This document shows, piece by piece, positions 914 to 8,910 of a stretch of 53,933 nucleotides of DNA. Every line of letters begins with the position of its first letter. Within the stretch, counting starts at the first letter, position 1. A program made the translations under genes and the position numbers. This DNA is from Burkholderiales bacterium (GTDB taxonomy: Bacteria; Pseudomonadota; Gammaproteobacteria; Burkholderiales; Burkholderiaceae_C): positions 1 through 53,933 of the forward strand of contig JACPOI010000059.1 of assembly GCA_016185015.1 (NCBI GenBank), read 5' to 3'. The notes beneath the pieces are model-generated. The model saw nothing but the letters and a program-made list of their open reading frames with translations. It had not been told where the DNA came from and searched no databases.

Positions 914-941
914 ACTTTATACGATGTATATCTTCTGTCTT
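914..941 (+). other. Left dif-like/att site of the element
   Basis: The site reads ACTTTATACGA (914-924, XerC-arm position), TGTATA (925-930, central hexamer identical to the E. coli dif centre), and TCTTCTGTCTT (931-941), which poorly matches the XerD-arm consensus TTATGTTAAAT. It sits in the AT-rich gap 845-978, which holds no gene. A good XerC-side half with a degenerate XerD side is the pattern expected for the non-functional junction left after TLC-type integration. Confidence 0.65.
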
Positions 942-978
942 ATGGATCATCGCTGCAATCCTTTCATCGGCTGATAAA

Positions 979-1149
979 TCAAGACGGCTTTTCAGGGCGC
1001 GCAGCTACCACCTGGGCAGGGGGAGCAGGGCGCACGCGGGAAGGCTGGCCAGCAGGCATAGGCCGAGGCTTACCGTCAGGGTCTACGACCCCGACACCCC
1101 GGTTTTGAGCCAACCATTGGCGGTAAAGACGATCGGTCAAAGCGCTCAT
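979..1149 (-). CDS. Small hypothetical protein of the dif element (56 aa)
   Basis: The predicted 56-residue protein begins MSALTDRLYRQWLAQNRG and ends in a Pro/Ala/Arg-rich tail. Its ATG overlaps the TGA of the preceding 80-aa gene by four bases (ATGA, 1146-1149), a translational-coupling arrangement that argues it is real. A longer version of the same frame, opening at 1233, would overlap the 80-aa gene extensively and is less likely. No family is recognised. It is the last gene of the element, ending about 40 bp inside the left Xer site. Confidence 0.5.
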   Translation of the reverse strand: MSALTDRLYRQWLAQNRGVGVVDPDGKPRPMPAGQPSRVRPAPPAQVVAARPEKPS

Positions 1150-1388
1150 GACTCGACGTCTCCCGACGCTGGGGCCTGAGGCAACAAGGGAGGACAGCCG
1201 TGCGCATAGAGGGCAGAGCTGAGCGTCTGCCATGTCTCGACGTAGCGCTCGAGGATGCCGACAGCCAGGGTTGAAACACTGGCATCGCAGCTAGCAGTAC
1301 GGCACAACTCTAAAAGGGCCTGCGCCTCAGCAGTAGGACCCCACATGGCCTTTTCGGCCTCCTCAACAGTAGAATGGACACTAGCCAT
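1146..1388 (-). CDS. Small hypothetical protein of the dif element (80 aa)
   Basis: An 80-residue, mostly helical-looking protein with an acidic N-terminus (STVEEAEKAMWG) and a central run AQALLELCRTASCDASVSTL. It has no signal peptide or membrane segment. The start is supported by an AGGAG Shine-Dalgarno sequence (complement of 1395-1399), six bases before the ATG. It follows the 91-aa gene on the same strand and overlaps the 56-aa gene by ATGA. No family is recognised; by context it is a small cargo or phage-type regulatory protein. Confidence 0.6.
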   Translation of the reverse strand: MASVHSTVEEAEKAMWGPTAEAQALLELCRTASCDASVSTLAVGILERYVETWQTLSSALYAHGCPPLLPQAPASGDVES

Positions 1389-1418
1389 TTCATGCTCCTA
1401 ACGTGACTCTGGTTAGAG

Positions 1419-1449
1419 ATGCCCGGTAGCGCTTCACACGCCCGGGCAT
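1419..1449. other. Inverted repeat between element genes
   Basis: ATGCCCGG (1419-1426) and CCGGGCAT (1442-1449) form an 8-bp stem with a 15-nt loop, in the gap between the 91-aa gene (ending at 1485) and the 80-aa gene (starting at 1388). No clear U-run follows on the minus strand, so it may be an mRNA processing or stability hairpin, or a phage operator, rather than a strong terminator. Confidence 0.35.
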
Positions 1450-1484
1450 TTCGCTTTTCTGGGCCAAAAAGACCCGTGACGCCC

Positions 1485-1760
1485 TCAAGAGGCGGCAGAT
1501 ACCCCCTTTGCCTGCCGTGCAAGCTGCTTGATCAATTTGCGACGCTCAGAGCGTTTTTCCGGAGCGTCTGGGGGTAGGACCACCCCGGGACCATCCGAAC
1601 GCGCCCTGGGCTTGGGATAGAGCTTGGCAAGAGCCTTGCGACGCTCACCAATCTCCCGGGGAGTCTCAGGAGCAGGTTTGAGCTGCTCCCGCTCCTTGTT
1701 GCTGGCACCGCTTTTGCCGTTAGACCGCAAAGCAGCCCCGATAGAACCGAACCTAGCCAC
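1485..1760 (-). CDS. Small basic hypothetical protein of the dif element (91 aa)
   Basis: A 91-residue Lys/Arg-rich protein with two copies of a similar charged motif, EIGERRKALAKL and EKRSERRKLIKQL, separated by a Pro/Gly-rich linker. This suggests a duplicated nucleic-acid-binding helix. The chosen start is a GTG at 1758-1760, preceded by AAAGGGGG as a strong ribosome-binding site and overlapping the stop region of the XafT-like gene (its TAG is at 1753-1755). An upstream in-frame ATG exists at 1835 but would overlap that gene further and lacks this signal. No family is recognised. Confidence 0.6.
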   Translation of the reverse strand: MARFGSIGAALRSNGKSGASNKEREQLKPAPETPREIGERRKALAKLYPKPRARSDGPGVVLPPDAPEKRSERRKLIKQLARQAKGVSAAS

Positions 1761-2310
1761 GTGGACCCCCTTTGTTAGCCGACACTGACATATCCAACCC
1801 CTCCGGAACCCGCATGTTTGCTCGATGTGCGCCAAAGTGTCTTAGGAATAAATTTAGGCCGGTCGCCTGCGGCGACCGCCCGGCGTCGCCGGTCGGGTAG
1901 CTCGCCATGCGGCCGGCGCCCGATCCCGGGGGGATCGGATCGCCTACCGCAGGCGCCCTCCCGGCCATCGCCATGAGGACGGAAAATTGCCGGTCCCGGT
2001 CGTACATCTCCCCAAACAGGCGGGCTTTCCTGACCAGCAGGCCCCACCAATTCGAATCGTGGGGATTGAACCCGTGGCCCTCAGGGCTCCAGAGCTTGCC
2101 GGAGTGCATATGCCAGCCGTCCCAGCCTGGACTGGGTAGCTCAGCACCGGCCATGATCCGCAACAGCCGATAGGCCGCATAGGGCACAAGCGTCTTGCCG
2201 GAAATCCAGTACCTGACGGTCCGGGGGGTCACATGCAAAGCTTGCGCAGCCGTGTCCGGGGTAAGACCCAGATCGGCCAACATCACCTTGAGCCTGGAGG
2301 CAAGCAGCAT
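1753..2310 (-). CDS. VC1465/XafT-like Xer recombination activation factor (DUF3653 family)
   Basis: A 185-residue protein with a helix-turn-helix near residues 15-45 (TAAQALHVTPRTVRYWISG), followed by the tryptophan-rich segment WDGWHMHSGKLWSPEGHGF typical of the DUF3653 phage family. The best-known member, VC1465 (XafT) of the Vibrio TLC satellite phage, activates host XerC/XerD recombination between the phage att site and dif. The residues after about 110 are Gly/Pro-rich and not recognised. The gene starts 45 bp inside the right-hand dif-like site, exactly where an Xer-exploiting element would place it, and is followed by three small co-oriented genes. No clear Shine-Dalgarno precedes the ATG. 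Family assignment is from memory of motifs, without a search. Confidence 0.7.
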   Translation of the reverse strand: MLLASRLKVMLADLGLTPDTAAQALHVTPRTVRYWISGKTLVPYAAYRLLRIMAGAELPSPGWDGWHMHSGKLWSPEGHGFNPHDSNWWGLLVRKARLFGEMYDRDRQFSVLMAMAGRAPAVGDPIPPGSGAGRMASYPTGDAGRSPQATGLNLFLRHFGAHRANMRVPEGLDMSVSANKGGPRG

Positions 2311-2354
2311 GCGGGTTTGACGAGAGTTGCGGGGTTGCTTTCTCCGTCTATCGT

Positions 2355-2382
2355 ACTTGATACGATGTATATTATGTTAAAT
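2355..2382 (+). other. dif site (candidate chromosome dimer resolution site), right end of the element
   Basis: The 28-bp site consists of ACTTGATACGA (2355-2365, XerC arm), TGTATA (2366-2371, central hexamer) and TTATGTTAAAT (2372-2382, XerD arm). The last 17 bases are identical to the corresponding part of E. coli dif. The XerC arm is less canonical (consensus RNTKCGCATAA), consistent with it having been supplied by the inserted element. The surrounding stretch 2311-2407 contains no gene. As dif is normally single-copy at the terminus, this marks the probable replication terminus of the chromosome. Confidence 0.8.
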
Positions 2383-2407: not shown

Positions 2408-3322
2408 TCAGGTCACCTCAAAGTTCAGCATGGGTGCACTGGCATCCGTGAACGACGCGCCCAGAGCGATCTGGCCTCGTCCGTGCAAGACGCACTCTTC
2501 TCTGCGCAGCAGCAGCTCTGATCGGGCCCCCACAAACCGTATCCAGGTGCCGTAGCTGCTCATGTCGATGAGCATGATGCGGCCATGGCGCCATTCAAGG
2601 CGTGCATGCGTACGTGACACACGCGGGTCGGCGACGACAAATTCACAATGACGGATGCGCCCGATGTGCGCGGGCAGCTCAAAGGCCCGAAAGACGCGTT
2701 TCTGGTCCCCCCAGCTCAGGTGGACCTCCTGGCCCAGGGCGTCGGCCTTCGCGGCCTTACTCATGGGGTCGATGTCCCCCTGCATGGTGATGAAGTCGGT
2801 GGACTGGTCCTCATGCCACTCCACCTGGTACACATTGCAGGGCTCGACGCGGCCACGCACGCTGATGGGACCCAGGGGCCGGTAGCGTATGCCGTTGGCC
2901 CGGCTGGAATAGTCCAGATCGGGGCTTTCCACCCATATTTCATGAGGGCCCGCCAGGTCGCTGAGCCTGGAGGCAATGTTCACGGCATCGCCGTAGCAAT
3001 CGCCGTTCACGATTTCCACCTCGCCGGTGGCCACCCCTACACGTATCGGCAGGTGCTCGGCCAGGGGCTGCTGCAGGAGGTTCATCTGGTGCTGGCGTTG
3101 CAGATCCACGACGGCATTGACAGCCACGGTGGCATCCTGGAACACGGTCAGGACGCCGTCGCCCAGCGTCTTGATGACCTGCCCGCCCTGGGCCTGCAGC
3201 ACTTCACAAATCCAGCGCGTCAACTGCGTGACGGCTCGGGTGGCCCTGATATTGCCTAGTGACTCGAAAACGGAGGTGCTGCCGGTCAGATCAGTGAAAA
3301 CGACGGTGGTGTTGACACCCAT
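2408..3322 (-). CDS. Class III adenylate/guanylate cyclase with C-terminal FHA domain
   Basis: The 304-residue protein has a class III cyclase homology domain at residues 1-170. Asp11 in VVFTDLTGST and Asp55 in KTLGDGVL are the two metal-binding aspartates, and the transition-state pair Asn115/Arg119 sits in YGDAVNIASRL. From about residue 205 an FHA phosphothreonine-binding domain follows, with the signature IGR at the start of its core and RVSRTHARLEW. The expected activity is cyclic nucleotide synthesis coupled to a phosphorylated partner protein; the substrate is not obvious. No membrane segment or signal peptide is present. The ATG immediately precedes the catalytic strand, and no strong ribosome-binding site is seen. 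It lies 25 bp to the right of dif with no kinase in view. Confidence 0.9.
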   Translation of the reverse strand: MGVNTTVVFTDLTGSTSVFESLGNIRATRAVTQLTRWICEVLQAQGGQVIKTLGDGVLTVFQDATVAVNAVVDLQRQHQMNLLQQPLAEHLPIRVGVATGEVEIVNGDCYGDAVNIASRLSDLAGPHEIWVESPDLDYSSRANGIRYRPLGPISVRGRVEPCNVYQVEWHEDQSTDFITMQGDIDPMSKAAKADALGQEVHLSWGDQKRVFRAFELPAHIGRIRHCEFVVADPRVSRTHARLEWRHGRIMLIDMSSYGTWIRFVGARSELLLRREECVLHGRGQIALGASFTDASAPMLNFEVT

Positions 3323-4963: not shown

Positions 4964-6953
<1,990 letters not shown>

Positions 6954-7071
6954 GTTGCGGCTAGTTTAGCCTCGCACCTGAGCCGACGGCAGCGGCGCAA
7001 GCCACACGAAGGGTGTTTTCTGATACCTTTGCCAGGAACCGAGTCAAATTCAGGACACGACGGGCACAGGC

Positions 7072-8910
7072 ATGAGCGGCGCGCTGGTGGGATTCAGGAT
7101 AAATGGCGAGAAAAAGCTGCACCGGCTGCATGGCGAGCGCAGCTGTGAAAGCGTGCTCACCGAGTTGCTGGCCTACCTGCACCGGGTCAGCGATGCCCGC
7201 CTGGACAGCTATGCGCGCACGCTCAAGCTGGTCGGACCGGAGCACGGCCCCTTTCCGGGGGAAACCGACCAGACCGTGATCCAGGCTTTCTTCGAGGACC
7301 ATTTCGGCGAAACCTGCCCGTTTCACACCTGGGCGGAGACCTTCGATGCCTTGCCCGAACTGGAGGGCTGGCATGCTGGCTTTCCTTTCATGCCGGCAGC
7401 GGCCATCAAGAGTTGCGGTGACGTGTCCTGGGGTTTTCTGATCGACCTCGACACCGGCACGCTGCAGATCTTTGTCAACCGCCACGCACGCTTCCAATGG
7501 AGCGACATGGCCGACACCCAGCCCGCCTACTGCACCCTGCCCCTGGCCCATGCACGTCAGTTGACTGCGCAGGATCTCTCGGCCCTGCATGGCTTGCTGC
7601 ACCAGCACTCCTATTCCGATGGCATCGATCCGGTCCTGCCTCTGCAGGATGCCGTGTCGGCACCTTTTCCCGGGCCGGGACCGTGGCAGACCAGGCTCAA
7701 GCTGACCCACGGCCGTGCCCGGCTGTTGCTGGAGCGCGGCCCCCTCAGGGCCAAGCTCAGGCAGGTCGGCGAGCTGAGGCTAGACGATGCCCACTGCGGA
7801 GCGCTGCTGCGCGAAGCGCTGGCCCCGCCCGTGCTGGCGATGGCACAGGCCATTTACGGGCCGGACGCGAATCTCGGGCAGGTTGCCCACGTGGCGGCGC
7901 ATCTGCCGGCCCTGCCCTACGCGCCGGATGACGGCGGCCTGCCCCTGCTCGACCTCGGCCTGAGCGCGGCCTCCGGGCTGAAGCTGGCCTTGGGGCCCGG
8001 CTTCTTCGACGACGTGCGCTCGCGCTTTCTGGCCGCCGGCATGAGCACGCAAGGCTGGCGTTTCCTGATCAAGCAGGACAACGCCGTGCTGCGCTTCGTG
8101 CTGCAGTTCTTCCCGCCTTCGGCCCGTATCCTGGGCTCCTTCACCCACTTCATCAACCTGCTGGCGAGCGCCTTGCAAAGCGAACCGCTGCGGATCGAGC
8201 GCTGCCAGCCGGCCTTGCGCGGCGTCGAACGCATCCTCGACCGTACGCGCGGTCGTCCTGGCCCGCTGCGCGAAGACAATGCGCGCATTTTCCTGCGCGC
8301 CATCATGCGGGCCCGACTGTCCATGGAAGAAGAGGCCAATCTGGCCCATGAGGCCCAGGACGTGTCCGATTTCGTCTACGCCCACACGGCGGTGCTCAAG
8401 GGGGTGACCTGGCGCTCGCTGTGCCGGCGCTCGGACGAGTGGCACCGGGCGCTGTTGATCACGGTCGATCCCGACAAGGATGTGCGCTGGCCTGCCCTGC
8501 TTCCGGTGTTTGCCACGGGGCCCTTCCTCGCCGTGGAACTCGATTCAGGCTTTTTGCTGGCCGAGGAAGGCCTGGAACAGCGCCACTGCATCGGCACCTA
8601 TGCCAATGCCTGCGCCAGCGGCGCCACCCGGGTTTTCTCCCTGCGCCACAACGGCCGGCGCGCCGCAACCATCGAACTGCAGCGCGGCCATGACGGCGCC
8701 TGGCACATGGTCCAGATCCGTGGCAAGGCCAACACGGTGATACAAGATCCGGCCCTCCTGAACGCGGCGGGCCAGTTGACACAGGCCTATTCGCAGGCGG
8801 CGCAGGCGCGCGAGCGCGTGGAATTCGCCAGGGTCCGCGAACGGCAGCCGTCGAGCGGCTCGCTGTCGCCCTCGCTGCTCGTGCCGCAACAGGAGTACTG
8901 GACTGGCTAG
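7072..8910 (+). CDS. PcfJ-like domain protein (612 aa)
   Basis: A large soluble protein. Its C-terminal part carries a PcfJ-like signature: EQRHCIGTYANAC around residue 505, then VFSLRHNGRRAATIEL and a VQIRGKANT segment, in the order usual for that domain. PcfJ was named from an enterococcal conjugative plasmid; chromosomal relatives in proteobacteria have no established function. The first 480 residues are not recognised; they contain several Trp/Phe-rich stretches and no signal peptide or membrane segment. No conjugation genes are nearby. The start at ATG 7072 lacks a strong ribosome-binding site, so an alternative start a few codons away is possible. It ends 30 bp from convergent guaA. Confidence 0.72.
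   Translation: MSGALVGFRINGEKKLHRLHGERSCESVLTELLAYLHRVSDARLDSYARTLKLVGPEHGPFPGETDQTVIQAFFEDHFGETCPFHTWAETFDALPELEGWHAGFPFMPAAAIKSCGDVSWGFLIDLDTGTLQIFVNRHARFQWSDMADTQPAYCTLPLAHARQLTAQDLSALHGLLHQHSYSDGIDPVLPLQDAVSAPFPGPGPWQTRLKLTHGRARLLLERGPLRAKLRQVGELRLDDAHCGALLREALAPPVLAMAQAIYGPDANLGQVAHVAAHLPALPYAPDDGGLPLLDLGLSAASGLKLALGPGFFDDVRSRFLAAGMSTQGWRFLIKQDNAVLRFVLQFFPPSARILGSFTHFINLLASALQSEPLRIERCQPALRGVERILDRTRGRPGPLREDNARIFLRAIMRARLSMEEEANLAHEAQDVSDFVYAHTAVLKGVTWRSLCRRSDEWHRALLITVDPDKDVRWPALLPVFATGPFLAVELDSGFLLAEEGLEQRHCIGTYANACASGATRVFSLRHNGRRAATIELQRGHDGAWHMVQIRGKANTVIQDPALLNAAGQLTQAYSQAAQARERVEFARVRERQPSSGSLSPSLLVPQQEYWTG

Follow-up and report, generated by a model that had tools for sequence, protein, structure and literature searches.

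TLC-phi of Vibrio cholerae is described as a satellite that lacks morphogenesis genes and integrates at dif by means of the host Xer recombinases (PMC4246890, PMC5357621). It is reported to carry an autonomous replication module (PMC4246890), and the accounts of its attP site give an XerC side and centre that are kept next to an XerD side that is divergent (PMC5357621, PMC4246890). XafT is described as an XerD-activating factor of an integrative mobile element exploiting Xer (IMEX) of V. cholerae (PMC9765430), and a 221-nt M13 mini phage that holds only origins and a packaging signal is described as being packaged with a helper (PMC10480500). Here we analyse a 1441-bp element that lies within the chromosomal dif site of a Burkholderiales bacterium, on a contig whose entire analysed stretch of 53,933 nucleotides is called the window (assembly GCA_016185015.1, contig JACPOI010000059.1). 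Its anatomy, together with an empty site in a related genome, makes Xer integration at dif well supported. We further consider it likely that the element is a minimal TLC-type IMEX without Rep and coat genes, and a satellite of inoviruses (filamentous phages) that brings its own means of activating XerD and would use a helper for replication and export.

The element is bracketed by two direct sites at positions 914-931 and 2355-2372, which have 17 of 18 bases in common and identical TGTATA centres, as the original prediction had stated. The right junction (positions 2355..2382, plus strand) is a full dif composed of ACTTGATACGA, TGTATA and TTATGTTAAAT; the left junction (positions 914..941, plus strand) reads ACTTTATACGA, TGTATA and TCTTCTGTCTT, the last of these being a degenerate XerD arm. 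Throughout the assembly of 66 contigs and 4.02 Mb, the right site is the sole dif-like match with at most three mismatches over 26 bases, and the predicted location at the chromosomal dif thus holds, with no other dif present there. A 24-base dif pattern has exactly one site in 25 of 60 related genomes (the window genome counted) and is without a match in the other 35, 24 of which belong to other families. The host genome encodes an XerD that scores over the cut-off, and another of its tyrosine recombinases, which is XerD-like, scores 266 bits.

An empty dif in a relative had been proposed as a check, and it exists in a genome of the same genus (G015), where an uninterrupted dif lies between the same flanking genes. 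The encoded proteins are 98.7% identical between the two genomes for the flanking FHA/cyclase gene and 82% identical for the flanking 2-phosphosulfolactate-phosphatase-like gene. When about 400 bp per side were compared, with the sides aligned separately and the arms included, 343 of 413 aligned bases matched on the left through the XerC arm and TGTATA, and 378 of 417 matched on the right from TGTATA onward. Indeed, the XerC arm and centre of the left junction are identical to those of the empty dif. Because the empty site matches both flanks up to the junction, a chance repeat is excluded, and it follows from the alignment that the left junction joins the host XerC arm, through TGTATA, to an XerD arm derived from the element, and that the right junction joins the XerC arm of the element to the host XerD arm. 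The asymmetry of a full dif on one side and a degenerate XerD arm on the other, which had been put forward as the outcome of TLC-type integration, agrees with this comparison. The genomes examined yielded none of the observations named beforehand as contradicting the original prediction, namely the same four genes without Xer repeats in a close relative, a different unique dif elsewhere in the chromosome, or no DUF3653 match. The gene that adjoins dif (2408-3322, minus strand) encodes a protein with a guanylate-cyclase domain and an FHA domain, and of the 24 other genomes that match the dif pattern, 6 have a homologue next to dif.

Between its two sites the element is filled by four open reading frames (ORFs) of 185, 91, 80 and 56 codons, all on the minus strand as previously noted, with overlapping ends within two pairs (the first with the second, and the third with the fourth). 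The first, at positions 1753..2310 (minus strand), encodes a 185-aa protein with a helix-turn-helix (HTH) region and a DUF3653 domain. The claim that this protein resembles VC1465/XafT was upheld by profile searches, which place it in the VC1465 family of Xer recombination activation factors (NF040522, VC1465_fam; 91.6 bits, cut-off 70) and match DUF3653 (PF12375; 37.2 bits, cut-off 22.4). A search of solved structures matched two HTH regulators (E values of 5e-4 and 4e-3), and tblastn in phages and plasmids returned Vibrio records only (8 and 4, respectively), with 34-41% identity over 36-39% of the protein.

The xafT-like gene overlaps at its end a gene for a small basic protein of 91 aa (1485..1760, minus strand) that begins with GTG; a longer form with a TTG start gives a weak match to phrog_20309 (E 8.7e-4). 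An 80-aa protein follows (1146..1388, minus strand), for which homology to the small middle protein that relatives carry at the same place was not shown, the identity to the first row being 20%. The last gene (979..1149, minus strand) overlaps the 80-aa gene by 4 nt and encodes a 56-aa protein that starts with the motif M-S-x-[LF]-T-D-x-[LI]-Y-x-x-W-[LI] and has 40.6% identity to its counterpart in a 900-bp element of the related genome G005. In profile searches the 91-, 80- and 56-aa proteins had no significant family (best E 0.16), and none of the four element proteins matched a recombinase, Rep or virion family. Our guess is that the three smaller proteins are probably small regulators or factors that interact with a helper.

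The element is one member of a family. Among the 60 related genomes, the VC1465 family scores over the cut-off in four, with five matches (G000, G018, G005 twice and G031), and all five lie no more than about 150 bp from the dif or an Xer-type junction of their genome. A further 25 genomes have weaker matches, chiefly to the HTH half. Within the genus, 3 of 26 genomes carry a XafT element. When 84,980 species genomes were scanned with an alignment of five rows as the query, 25 loci were found, three of which appear to be G005 and G031 again; 23 are betaproteobacterial by name and two are named only to phylum, and the genera include Rhodoferax, Polaromonas, Comamonas, Acidovorax and Xylophilus. 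Viral contigs contributed four more loci, for 29 from both scans; a single-protein scan of these contigs reached no relatives, whereas the alignment-based scan did.

An Xer-type site lies 48-85 bp upstream of the XafT match in all 29 loci. Its XerD arm has at most two differences in 23 of them, and the site is XerD-less in the other six, which, L088 left aside, are tandem or abutting elements. A second, XerD-less site follows XafT in 20 loci and was not found in nine, most of which end at a contig end. The 27 complete elements, with those of the window and of G018 counted, measure 900-2728 bp, and with a family range of 0.9-2.7 kb the size of the window element is not unusual, contrary to what had been implied. 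Two complete elements stand in tandem in five loci (L073, L074, L085, L086 and L093). In G005, one contig holds a complete 900-bp copy and then the start of another, and a copy that is 93% identical adjoins dif on another contig; a strain mixture in this draft genome is a possible cause.

Gene content was compared in 25 elements, L072 having joined the family later and L085 being taken as one. XafT is present in all 25, and it is constrained, with dN below dS in 28 of 28 pairs of eight sequences. A ribbon-helix-helix-like protein occurs in 12 elements (13 ORFs), with sub-threshold matches to HicB in Pfam and to an Arc-like repressor in PHROGs. The strict signature of the 56-aa protein is found in 9 of the 25 elements and in none of the 126 viral contigs scanned, and the 900-bp G005 element holds little besides XafT and a 78-aa counterpart of this protein. 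A rolling-circle Rep (phrog_3419) is encoded by the 2728-bp element of L077 (locus positions 5856-8611), the only Rep recognised in the set; the other element ORFs had no Rep match by tblastn against the 126 viral contigs, which is not a full Rep search. The L077 element is a possible intermediate between TLC-phi and satellites without Rep.

In Polaromonas the XerC arm of dif differs, and the arms of the elements differ in the same way. More broadly, the XerC arms of elements track those of the host dif, as seen when loci L072, L076, L080, L082 and L085 are set against L069-L075 (TTCCACGA/TTCTACGA versus TTATACGA/TGATACGA). This tracking suggests that the elements may have adapted to their host lineages.

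Two features near the degenerate site were not noticed in the original prediction. The first emerged from a gapless column profile of the left ends of 24 elements (L093b was left out as a duplicate), which reveals two further conserved blocks, one T-rich at -69 to -63 and the other of the form GAAA-A-TTTC at -53 to -39. Conservation in the blocks reaches 1.55 bits per column, against no more than 0.38 in a control stretch taken from these elements, with kinship among the rows raising all columns. The column profile was used in place of a count of strict GAAAGAATTTCC occurrences, which finds 9 of 25 elements. In the window, a candidate accessory site of attP with the sequence TGAAAGGATTGCAGC lies at 952..966 (minus strand) beside the degenerate XerD arm, and the T-rich block of the extended attP, TTGATTT, lies at 976..982 (minus strand). 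Both blocks are candidate targets of XafT or of a host DNA-bending protein.

The second feature is a hairpin of the inovirus type at positions 1074..1100 (minus strand), consisting of GGGGT, a 9-bp stem and a GTA loop. Its position is inside the last gene's reading frame, not downstream of it. Under a strict rule, 16 of 25 elements have GGGGT followed by a stem-loop near the left end, none has it on the opposite strand, and block shuffles over 200 rounds gave a mean of 0.195 elements and a maximum of two. For the subtype present in the window, of which there are four distinct sequences only, the stem is 100% paired and three of nine pairs change on both sides, compared with 33-58% pairing in slid controls. 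Each subtype has a single occurrence among the 60 relatives, that of the window in the window itself and the common one within the element of G018. The hairpin at 1074-1100 and the blocks at a fixed distance beside the degenerate site are the reasons for tying the element to filamentous phages.

In IMG/VR the hairpin marks zot-encoding inoviruses. The motif of the common subtype was found there in at least 120 stretches, versus four for a control with the right arm reversed, and the motif of the window subtype in 28 stretches, versus one for its control. Zot (PF05707, E <= 0.001) was found in 36 of the 48 common-subtype records tested (35 over the cut-off), which comprise the first 45 among the matches listed (33 with Zot) and three picked for context (all with Zot). 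It was also found in 22 of the 28 window-subtype records, one of which is the L095 contig that also bears XafT, and in none of five control records. In 33 records that allow hairpin and zot to be paired (three partial loci and one sub-threshold match were excluded), hairpin and zot share a strand in 34 of 35 pairings, and the hairpin starts -60 to 600 nt from the zot stop in 20 of the 35. All four viral records with XafT carry zot on the same contig.

Hairpin and Xer site also occur together in viral contigs. In six of these (L123, L147, L173, L194, L197 and L200, of which L173/L194 and L123/L200 look like near-duplicates), an Xer attP core follows the hairpin at a distance of 80-128 nt, oriented as in the satellites; Zot was tested in L123, L173 and L194 only, and scored below the cut-off in L173. 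Contig L194 encodes a G2P-type Rep and Zot, and coat genes can be discerned by eye. In L094, an inovirus (Rep phrog_2969 and Zot) occupies one side of an Xer site and a XafT element the other, and the genome of Comamonas granuli NBRC 101663 (L079) combines a satellite with a zot locus that bears the hairpin and lies outside the 16-kb satellite locus.

Three Rep queries, each returning 20 hairpin contigs, gave the same 20 for two queries and a different 20 for the third, with no overlap, and the hairpin is therefore not bound to one Rep family. These disjoint sets disfavour a Rep-specific origin as its role and shift the likelihood somewhat towards a function, packaging for example, that does not depend on a single Rep family.

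Three neighbouring features were observed in passing. In L095, a 473-aa protein that by eye is SIR2-like (5157-6578, minus strand) lies between an inovirus zot and a XafT element and is possibly defence cargo. In a genome of the same family (G029:C1:1811170-1813399), some 1.7 kb separate zot from the dif match, possibly reflecting an inovirus integrated at dif. Farther along the window, a 459-aa ORF (4964-6343, minus strand) appears by eye to fuse a TadA-like deaminase to an alpha/beta hydrolase half that is haloalkane-dehalogenase-like.

Direct Xer sites at dif, an attP with a degenerate XerD arm and a full dif on one side, and a gene of the XafT family are features of TLC-type IMEXs, and all three are present here. 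We ascribe activation of XerD to XafT because of its membership in the VC1465/XafT family. Likewise, we infer replication and export by a helper from the hairpin, from the absence of recognised Rep or coat genes, from the inovirus neighbouring the element in L094 and from the precedent of the 221-nt M13 mini phage. Both wordings of the original prediction, a minimal parasite that exploits Xer and a satellite that needs a helper, fit these data, the need for a helper being a deduction. In the mechanism that we propose, XafT would activate the host XerD, possibly by way of the fixed-distance blocks near the degenerate arm, and XerD and then XerC would carry out strand exchange at attP and dif, independently of FtsK. 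A full dif would be rebuilt on one side, such that the host should still resolve its chromosome dimers and additional copies can accumulate in tandem. Excision would be the reverse step, carried out by the same proteins. The initiator protein of a helper inovirus and its Zot and coat export machinery would then act on the excised circle or on a tandem array, with the hairpin serving as a packaging signal or as part of a (+) origin, and the satellite would exit in short filaments.

Several observations weigh against this reading. The element is known as sequence alone, not as a circle, transcript or virion. The strict hairpin is absent from 9 of the 25 elements, the fold of the window hairpin taken alone is only moderately better than that of shuffles (z -2.2; 10 of 200 shuffles are equally good), and packaging signal, origin and terminator are all candidates for its role. 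Zot was not found in 12 of the 48 common-subtype records or in 6 of the 28 window-subtype records, 15 of the 35 pairings have no hairpin in the 600 nt after zot, and the Zot profile is not fully specific, as 4 of 14 cellular genomes used as controls also score over its cut-off. Moreover, zot was not found in the window genome and does not exceed the cut-off in the other three satellite genomes among the 60, and its presence in 6 of 22 satellite-bearing scan genomes versus 6 of 60 relatives is a weak excess. Finally, L083, L084 and L088 are without a second site despite 1.7-4.0 kb of sequence beyond the XafT start.

Some of the same points would be expected of a small, phage-independent Xer element that spreads by transformation or conjugation of host DNA and whose hairpin is a terminator or other regulatory structure. 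XafT and attP alone could suffice for integration, neither capsid nor Rep genes are recognised in the element, and the gaps in strict hairpin and zot occurrence just given are in keeping with this possibility. We nonetheless judge it unlikely, given that the hairpin is concentrated in zot-bearing inoviruses and in these elements, that the hairpin of the window lies inside a reading frame and not behind the gene, and that in L094 an inovirus faces a XafT element across an Xer site. Similarly improbable is a decayed remnant, now immobile, of a larger TLC-like or inoviral prophage that has lost its replication and structural genes. The lack of any such recognised gene in the window element, the lack of a zot match in its genome and the 2.7-kb relative L077 with its rolling-circle Rep are what such decay might leave. 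However, 27 complete elements from several genera share this compact layout, the reading frames are open with XafT under constraint, the cis blocks are conserved, and both divergent tandem copies and an empty site in a close relative are found. A locus domesticated by the host, with XafT adjusting the resolution of chromosome dimers on behalf of the cell, could account for the constraint on XafT and for the Xer-type site that adjoins it in 29 of 29 scan loci, but presence in only 3 of 26 genomes of the genus, an uninterrupted dif in a close relative and the divergence of the copies render this explanation very improbable.

Beyond the helper-dependent satellite proposed for the window, a wider claim stands, in our estimation, at an even chance of being correct: that there is a widespread natural family of minimal filamentous-phage satellites, as small as 900 bp, that obtain replication and export in trans through one shared inovirus hairpin and are mobilised in cis only by XafT acting on an extended attP (a T-tract and a GAAA-A-TTTC block at a fixed distance). 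If so, few satellites able to direct their own integration would be smaller, and dif sites of Comamonadaceae and Burkholderiaceae would host satellites cut down to an activator of Xer, a hairpin and a handful of tiny genes, offering a minimal system in which to study how XafT replaces FtsK. To our knowledge, packaging and origin signals of inoviruses are hardly known beyond a few models. The hairpin would provide a candidate packaging or origin element common to many inoviruses, would perhaps be a general packaging signal for Zot-type machinery across inoviruses with different Rep proteins, and could serve as a sequence tag for matching satellites to helpers.

A search of the literature by title and abstract returned no description of a XafT family of 0.9-2 kb without Rep and with an inovirus hairpin. 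Compared by description, TLC-phi of V. cholerae shares with the window element an attP with a degenerate XerD arm, the lack of morphogenesis genes, integration at dif by host Xer recombinases and a gene of the XafT family, and differs in having its own replication module, whereas none is recognised in the 1.44 kb of the window element. The M13 mini phage, as described, resembles the proposed satellite in that a helper packages a tiny circle, but it is engineered and uses an Ff-type signal (PMC10480500). The L194 inovirus has a hairpin of this family and, behind it on the strand that bears the hairpin, the attP core found in the elements. It differs in encoding a Rep of the G2P type, Zot and what by eye are coat genes, where the window element has XafT and three small genes only. 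Midonet and colleagues reportedly described in 2019 (PNAS) XafT-like IMEXs of gamma- and betaproteobacteria, with a XafT-like gene beside dif, an arrangement that the window element shares. Thus, TLC-type IMEXs are known, betaproteobacterial IMEXs with XafT-like genes are also said to be known, and what is new here is the hairpin-bearing family without Rep.

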